Source: Cognatazoarcus halotolerans | Lineage (GTDB): Bacteria; Pseudomonadota; Gammaproteobacteria; Burkholderiales; Rhodocyclaceae | Assembly (NCBI RefSeq): GCF_009800965.1 | Contig: NZ_WUAF01000001.1 | Location: 1 to 64,000 of the forward strand | DNA length: 64,000 nt | Direction of reading: 5' to 3' | Shown: piece by piece, positions 62,376 to 63,926 of the stretch | Position numbering within the stretch: position 1 is the stretch's first letter | Layout of the letters: the number at the start of each line of letters is the position of its first letter | Translations under genes and position numbers: made by a program | Notes under the pieces: generated by a model | Database searches by the model: none | What the model was told of the DNA's origin: nothing | The model's input: only the letters and a program-made list of their open reading frames with translations

Positions 62376-63926
62376 ATGACGGCCGAGATCATCGCGCGAT
62401 TGAAGGTCTTCGTGTCCTACGCGCGCAGCGACGGCAGCGCACTTGCCGAAGAGCTGGTGACGGCACTCGAGGTGGCGGGATTCGAGGGCTATCTCGATCG
62501 CCATGACATCTCCGCCGGCGAGGACTGGGAACAGCGCCTGGACACGCTGATCCGCCAGGCGGACACGGTGGTCTTTCTCATCACCCCCAGTGCGGTGGCG
62601 TCGGAACGCTGCACCTGGGAACTCGATCTGGCGCGGGCGCTGGCAAAACGCATCATCCCGGTCCTCGGCCTGCCATGCGCTGAGGCAACCATCCCCGTAG
62701 ACCTGCGCCGACTCAACTTCATAAACTTTGCACCGGGCAATTCGTTCGCGCGCGGACTCGGCCAGCTGGTCGGCGCCCTGAGACTCGACCTGGACTGGAT
62801 TCGCGAGCACACCCGCCTCGGAGAGCTCGCACAGCGCTGGGAGATCCGCGAACGCGTGGAAGCCCTGCTGCTGCGTGACGAGGAGCTCGCGGCAGCACAG
62901 GAGTGGCTGACCAACTGGCGAGCGGAGCTGCCCGCCGCCACGGAGGCCCAGCGCAGCTACATCGCTGCGAGTGCCGACGCGCAAGAAAGGCGGCATGACG
63001 AGGAGCGCAAGCGCAACGACGAGATGGCACGTGCCAACACCGAGCGCGCCGCCGCACTTGCCCGCCAGGAGCAGGCGATGCGCGCCCTGCGGCGCCGGAC
63101 CATCCTCGCGGGTATCGGCGTGGCCGCGCTCTCCGCCGGACTGGCAGGCACCACGGTGTGGGCGATGAAGCAGCGCGAGCGGGCGCTTGAGTTCTACATC
63201 CGCCGCGAGTCGCTACGCCGCGACATCGCGGGGCAGATCGTCGCCTACGCAGCAGCACCCGGGCAGTTCGCGATCGATAGCGGCCCGAGCGGGAGCTCGC
63301 CCTACACGACGGCCCTGCTCGAAGAGCTGGCTCCACCCGGGGTGTCCTTGTGGAGCGCCCTGTCGGCCACCTCGACCCGGGTGAACCGCAGCTCGAAGGG
63401 CGATCAGCGCCCCTTCATCTCGTCCGACATGAACGGCGACCTGTACCTGAGCCAGCCCTCCCCGACACGACGGCAGCATGCCCTGGTCATCGCGGTGGGC
63501 CGCTATCCGCAGATCCCGGGCGTCCAGTTCGACGGTGTCTACAAGGATCTCGCCGAATGGGAGAAATTCCTCACCGCACGGGGTTTCACGTTCGCGGGCC
63601 TGCGCGACCCGACCCTCGACGAACTGCGCCATGCGCTGGACGGACTGAGCATCGGCGCCACCGCCCCTCCGGCCGCGCCCGACAAGGGGAAGGCGTCTAC
63701 CGCTCCCGAAGCGCCGCCCGACACCCTGCTGCTGGTGGTGTACTCCGGCATGGGCTTCCACTTCGGCGGAGAAAAGTACATCGGCTGCAAGGACGTCACA
63801 CTCAAGGACGCCAGGGAAGCGACGCCGGCCCCGGATCTGCCCGGCGCGCTACGGGTGAGCGAACTTGAGAAACGTGCCCGCCGGCTGGCCGCCGCATCGG
63901 TGCTGGTCTACGACACCCAATTCTAG
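62376..63926 (+). CDS. TIR - helical - membrane - permuted caspase-like protein
   Basis: 516 residues. A TIR domain (9-100) opens with LKVFVSYARSD; the conserved Glu of TIR NADases is in CTWELDLARA (residue 82). A helical, charged linker (140-240) leads to one membrane helix (243-263). Then come two caspase-fold pieces in reversed order: a p10-like piece (about 284-360, VAYAAAPGQFAIDSGPSGSSPY) followed by a p20-like piece (365-516, HALVIAVGRYPQIPGV). The GHG of active caspases is SGMG (457-460) and the D-A-C site reads YDTQF at the very C-terminus, so both catalytic residues are missing. The gene is 154 bases after draG and appears separate. Confidence 0.78.
   Translation: MTAEIIARLKVFVSYARSDGSALAEELVTALEVAGFEGYLDRHDISAGEDWEQRLDTLIRQADTVVFLITPSAVASERCTWELDLARALAKRIIPVLGLPCAEATIPVDLRRLNFINFAPGNSFARGLGQLVGALRLDLDWIREHTRLGELAQRWEIRERVEALLLRDEELAAAQEWLTNWRAELPAATEAQRSYIAASADAQERRHDEERKRNDEMARANTERAAALARQEQAMRALRRRTILAGIGVAALSAGLAGTTVWAMKQRERALEFYIRRESLRRDIAGQIVAYAAAPGQFAIDSGPSGSSPYTTALLEELAPPGVSLWSALSATSTRVNRSSKGDQRPFISSDMNGDLYLSQPSPTRRQHALVIAVGRYPQIPGVQFDGVYKDLAEWEKFLTARGFTFAGLRDPTLDELRHALDGLSIGATAPPAAPDKGKASTAPEAPPDTLLLVVYSGMGFHFGGEKYIGCKDVTLKDAREATPAPDLPGALRVSELEKRARRLAAASVLVYDTQF

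Follow-up and report, generated by a model that had tools for sequence, protein, structure and literature searches.

A predicted circularly permuted pseudo-caspase joined through a transmembrane helix to a TIR domain in Cognatazoarcus halotolerans

Caspases in which the p10 half precedes the p20 half are known from protein engineering (PMC7760212), and the same order occurs naturally in type III metacaspases such as GtMC2 of Guillardia theta, a group described as confined to algae (PMC5756287). Another account places the type III metacaspases in 'algae and bacteria' (PMC4357240), and by that wording a bacterial precedent for the p10-first order is possible. Bacteria also encode pseudo-orthocaspases and pseudo-metacaspases, which are caspase homologues without the His-Cys (HC) dyad; the usual substitutions in these variants are Tyr/Ser, Tyr/Ala and Phe/Ser, and a survey detected no such variants in photosynthetic Rhodocyclales (PMC6426788). 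Cooperation of TIR and caspase modules in bacteria has a precedent in type IV Thoeris: a caspase-like protease is switched on there by a molecule that the TIR protein makes, as stated in a passage of PMC12847820 that cites Rousset 2025. Here we describe a single gene of Cognatazoarcus halotolerans whose predicted product carries a TIR domain, a transmembrane (TM) helix and a caspase domain with reversed halves.

The gene occupies positions 62376-63926 on the plus strand (as do all features below) of the window, the 64,000-nucleotide stretch of contig NZ_WUAF01000001.1 that was analyzed, and runs uninterrupted for 516 codons from ATG to TAG; the coordinates and peptides quoted in a first-pass annotation of this DNA match the open reading frame (ORF). 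The 516-residue protein is ordered as TIR domain, helical linker, one TM helix, p10, nine-residue linker and p20. Could this order be an artifact of a local sequence error? In each segment of the ORF the annotated frame has the better codon preference, and GC3 lies between 0.79 and 0.90 throughout, which indicates that the junction of the two caspase halves is coding sequence and no frameshift patch. A frameshift or assembly patch is ruled out by this even coding signal through the junction, and a missing downstream p10 is likewise ruled out since none is encoded after the stop codon; nor is a p20 encoded ahead of the p10 half. A return of homologues to the ordinary order once an error is corrected, which the first-pass annotation had named as fatal to its proposal, was not observed. 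The codon preference of the gene is 0.24-0.44 versus 0.42-0.56 for its neighbors, on which the score was trained.

The Pfam Peptidase_C14 profile matches the protein twice, with the later part of the profile ahead of the earlier one (whole-protein E 6e-13). Profile positions 159-232 align to residues 285-356, within a p10-like half that spans residues 285-358 (63228-63449), contains A299 and D301, and is also delimited by alignments. The p20-like half follows at residues 368-516 (63477-63923) with D391, Met459, D513 and Gln515, is matched by profile positions 1-59 and is recovered in the AF2 model. Alignment and residue map place the linker SQPSPTRRQ (63450-63476) between the end of p10 and the start of p20. 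When submitted alone, the p10 piece scores E 1.5e-8, and the C-terminal piece matches profile positions 1-59 with E 3e-4 and 21.0 bits, slightly under the 21.4-bit cutoff. The p20-before-p10 order of C14 peptidases is therefore absent here, whereas 140 of 156 collected caspase ORFs possess it; the sole p10-p20 arrangement without a preceding p20 is the present ORF, and these counts exclude chance.

The active site is altered as the first-pass annotation had described, with Met459 (YSGMG) at the catalytic His position and Gln515 (DTQ) at the catalytic Cys position, each of which is occupied by the catalytic residue in 60 of 63 aligned p20 fragments. The His-Cys dyad of C14 peptidases is accordingly missing. 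The stop codon lies one residue past the Cys position, which places the cut point of the permutation in the inter-subunit loop of ordinary caspases. The two halves are conserved to different degrees: p10 scores about 60 bits to ordinary p10s, and p20 is much more diverged (37 bits or less), with its best match in a different C14 subgroup. The p20 half also holds a low-complexity Pro/Ala/Lys insert of about 18 residues (~430-447; 63663-63716) between a p20 helix and the SGMG strand, which is absent from ordinary caspases and is modeled with low confidence.

Residues 275-516 were folded with AF2 from an alignment in which p10 and p20 fragments of ordinary bacterial caspases formed separate rows. 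The alignment comprised 8 p10 rows, 60 p20 rows and a bridging row from the tandem caspase L084 described below; this choice of rows was made because MAFFT misplaced p20 fragments among many p10 rows. The resulting model has a pLDDT of 87.7 and a pTM of 0.86, and folding the same residues without an alignment gave a pLDDT of 39.5, so that the fold is a prediction leaning on homologues and not a measurement. The model has the caspase alpha/beta fold with its p20 and p10 parts, in agreement with Pfam. A Foldseek search of the whole PDB returned chains of the engineered, permuted caspase cpCasp2 as its best four matches (E 6e-8 to 1.9e-7, TM-score 0.64-0.70). In VIA-align, cpCasp2 superposed on the model over 197 residues with Z-scores of 23.1-23.2, and no ordinary caspase exceeded a Z-score of 11.9, with about 135 residues aligned. 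The assignment of residues 284-360 to the caspase C-terminal subdomain, on which the first-pass annotation had staked its proposal, is upheld by Pfam and by structure prediction, which set p10 at 285-358; its broader description of a TIR protein with one TM helix and a p10-like segment ahead of a p20-like one agrees with the ORF, the quoted peptides, the reversed C14 match and the predicted fold. The profile matches and the model together support residues 275-516 as a predicted circularly permuted caspase domain with a dead dyad.

A second question is what such a domain could do once the catalytic pair has gone. D301, D391 and D513 fall in columns that are invariant Asp in alignments of ordinary caspases, and by profile alignment they correspond to E500, D365 and D462 of MALT1, with numbering counted along MALT1 from the anchor C464. 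In MALT1 the P1-Arg pocket is formed by D365, D462 and E500 with Gly416 and Ala498 (PMC4357240). The positions of G416 and A498 are occupied by G460 and A299, and all five pocket positions are kept or conservatively replaced (D391, G460, A299, D301 and D513). Judged by residue identity, an acidic pocket for a basic residue (Arg/Lys) would be complete in a protein that has lost its catalytic pair. The retention of D301, D391 and D513 may instead reflect structural constraint rather than ligand binding, since the same residues also contribute to the architecture near the active site.

The first-pass annotation had offered two roles for this domain, a sensor or a scaffold for a TIR NADase. As a scaffold, the permuted domain would pair with itself or with another caspase and bind no peptide, a role compatible with the loss of the dyad and with the better conservation of p10, which is the dimerization half in animal caspases. 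Pseudo-caspases can act as partners in this manner, as does cFLIP (named in PMC8195603). We nonetheless regard the scaffold as doubtful, given that every P1-pocket residue is kept, two of them within the strongly diverged p20, and that an adjacent second caspase gene is absent. The sensor is the best-supported role that we can infer for the domain.

Relatives with the same order of halves were sought widely. None was found in overlapping sets totaling 1,995 genome searches, whose queries were single sequences, a permuted profile (for this one, among the matches listed) or a junction profile, in two pattern-based scans covering 84,980 species (for the second scan, among the matches listed), or in the plasmids, phages and viral contigs searched. 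The matches listed by the second species scan and the permuted-profile search were mostly ordinary caspases, such that a weak permuted relative could escape them. No same-order homologue was found, and the sequence is a single orphan in its genus and family. Two junction-like rows, G013:C99 and G515:C1, have a p20 ahead of them. Other candidates were rejected on inspection: the best matches from the phylum search have the ordinary p20-p10 order, a junction match in genome G072 is an ordinary caspase adjoining a second caspase gene, and that in L084 is a tandem caspase of the order p20-p10-p20'-p10'.

In the tandem protein (L084:2467-4053, from a Terriglobia MAG), an active-looking p20-p10 unit is followed by a degenerate p20'-p10' unit that carries SLSV for AGHG and DASHSG for DAC. 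In G072 (L179, contig C4, about 180.8-183.7 kb) two caspase genes lie back to back, the second beginning a few bases from the stop of the first, and this gene pair is possibly the two-gene counterpart of the tandem caspases. Duplication followed by truncation is the standard route to circular permutation. A tandem of the L084 type is a plausible precursor state, and we hypothesize that the permuted domain arose by loss of the outer halves of a p20-p10-p20'-p10' tandem, leaving p10-p20'.

The gene sits between draG (ADP_ribosyl_GH) and a porin gene in a nif cluster ordered nifB, flavodiiron-like protein, ferredoxin, nifQ, draG ... draT, nifH, nifD, nifK. Two congeners keep nifB-nifQ-draG with no TIR gene next to draG, and in one congener the full draG-draT interval, inspected by eye, holds acetyltransferase, hemerythrin-like and PAS/GGDEF proteins instead, so the locus looks like a single-gene, lineage-specific insertion. 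Adjacency makes a link to dinitrogenase-reductase ADP-ribosylation possible. Two further genes of this genome may be recorded here: a SIR2_2-like gene (L006:4770-5696; G000:C22, about 66.8-67.7 kb; 24.2 bits, just below the Pfam cutoff) adjoins draT between the porin gene and nifHDK, and elsewhere L002 (G000:C13:186463-189822) encodes a TIR protein that continues into an apparent caspase-like region of the CHAT type and ends in a TM helix (TIR-CHAT-TM), with domains assigned by eye.

An orphan in this position might also be a decaying gene. In that case chance recombination would have joined a TIR-linker-TM head to a tandem caspase truncated to p10-p20', and the C-terminal region would now be drifting. 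The isolation of the gene in genus and family, its absence next to draG in the two congeners, the diverged p20 with its insert, the lower codon preference and the existence of tandems such as L084, whose second caspase unit is degenerate, would all be expected of such a history. Decay would not readily leave an intact ORF of 516 codons with codon bias even across domains, nor a high-confidence predicted fold that has given up its catalytic pair yet retained its structural and pocket residues, and we consider it unlikely.

The N-terminal part of the protein resembles that of TIR-linker-TM-WD40 proteins. The TIR domain, at residues 11-132 within a segment of residues 1-135 (62376-62780), matches Pfam TIR_2 with E 1.2e-23 and 84.3 bits (cutoff 28), and PDB matches include SARM1, TIR-SAVED and the SPARTA TIR. 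Glu82 in the CTWEL motif, which we take to be equivalent to SARM1 E642, is invariant across six aligned TIRs, and for this reason the TIR domain is probably an active NADase. A helical or coiled linker (residues 136-242; 62781-63101), recognized by its identity to TIR-linker-TM-WD40 proteins of congeners, leads to a single TM helix at residues 243-261 (63102-63158), with a Kyte-Doolittle mean of 1.79 over 19 residues and a TM helix at the equivalent place in three homologues. Over the TIR-linker-TM part the protein shares 44-47% identity with counterparts from three congeners that end in a C-terminal WD40 propeller; TIR, linker and one TM helix are all present here, and C14 stands in place of WD40. 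A more distant relative on the Agrobacterium tumefaciens plasmid pAtCG920 (L181:3465-6395) has the order TIR-linker-TM-WD40-Peptidase_M23 with one TM helix. M23 enzymes act on peptidoglycan, and a TIR domain depends on the NAD+ of the cytosol; the most natural topology for this class is therefore N-in, C-out, an argument that comes from one protein. By analogy, the C-terminal pseudo-caspase is most likely periplasmic. Against this placement, WD40 domains are usually cytosolic; positive charges lie on both TM flanks, so that topology is not fixed by charge alone. In its favor, among ordinary caspase relatives with enough upstream sequence, 105 of 132 carry a hydrophobic signal-like segment ahead of p20.

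How would such a protein signal? We assign a probability of roughly 0.5 to a Toll-like receptor encoded by one gene, whose peptide-binding pseudo-caspase lies in the periplasm and acts through the linker and TM helix to control a TIR NADase in the cytosol. We infer a location in the periplasm, binding of a peptide, activation by clustering, an NADase output and a role in defense or cell death, and these elements would fit together as follows. The pseudo-caspase pocket would bind a basic (Arg/Lys) peptide or an exposed protein loop in the periplasm and would not cut it; binding, or the clustering that results, would bring TIR domains together; the joined TIR domains would start NAD+ cleavage; and the outcome could be growth arrest or cell death. 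An alternative is an all-in-one cytosolic feedback, where the pseudo-caspase senses the nucleotide made by its own TIR domain, much as the type IV Thoeris caspase does with N7-cADPR. Coupling of TIR and caspase through N7-cADPR is known from a passage of PMC12847820, yet a TM helix lies between the two domains here, and neither neighbors nor model scores fit Thoeris, all of which makes this feedback highly improbable. The two-gene Thoeris operon with a dedicated effector is absent, the neighbors being draG and the porin gene, and the ThcB4 model matches the TIR part only, at 62.5 bits against a cutoff of 220. Thoeris and other defense assignments were rejected, their matches lying below cutoff or covering only the TIR domain. 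The anti-phage function suggested by the first-pass annotation finds no direct support in a single gene of a nitrogen-fixation locus that has no adjoining defense gene and scores below the cutoffs of defense models.

Returning to the membrane receptor, we propose more tentatively that a natural bacterial permuted pseudo-caspase, its pocket kept and catalysis discarded, would serve as the half of a single-protein Toll-like receptor that binds peptides in the periplasm, with a cytosolic TIR NADase as its output. The literature searched contained no protein that combines a permuted and dead caspase domain, a retained pocket and a TM link to TIR. If the proposal is true, a caspase fold has turned from cutter to receptor in bacteria by the permutation that engineers built for single-chain caspases, and the protein would offer a membrane-spanning TIR receptor of Toll-like topology, a concrete test case for the idea that pseudo-proteases sense peptides with a retained substrate pocket, and perhaps a connection between TIR and caspase immunity in bacteria. 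Caspases with p10 first would then also occur beyond the algae. Type III metacaspases share the p10-before-p20 order, but they are active, Ca2+-dependent proteases reported from algae of secondary endosymbiosis, with the HC dyad that is missing here and without TIR, TM helix or dyad loss. Bacterial pseudo-orthocaspases and pseudo-metacaspases share a p20 without the HC dyad, but have the ordinary order, and orthocaspases have no p10, whereas this protein has Met/Gln at the dyad and a p10 at 285-358. Type IV Thoeris likewise brings TIR and caspase-like parts into one pathway, there through two genes, a soluble nucleotide and an active protease. The TIR-linker-TM-WD40 proteins have the same TIR domain, linker and TM helix, and their sensor end is a WD40 propeller where ours is a caspase domain. 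The engineered JF1cpCasp2 (PDB 8vp4, 9c2y) is alike in placing p10 first and p20 second in one chain; it is man-made, active and Asp-specific, whereas the present protein is natural, has lost His and Cys, carries an acidic pocket predicted to suit a basic residue and is fused to a TIR domain and a TM helix.
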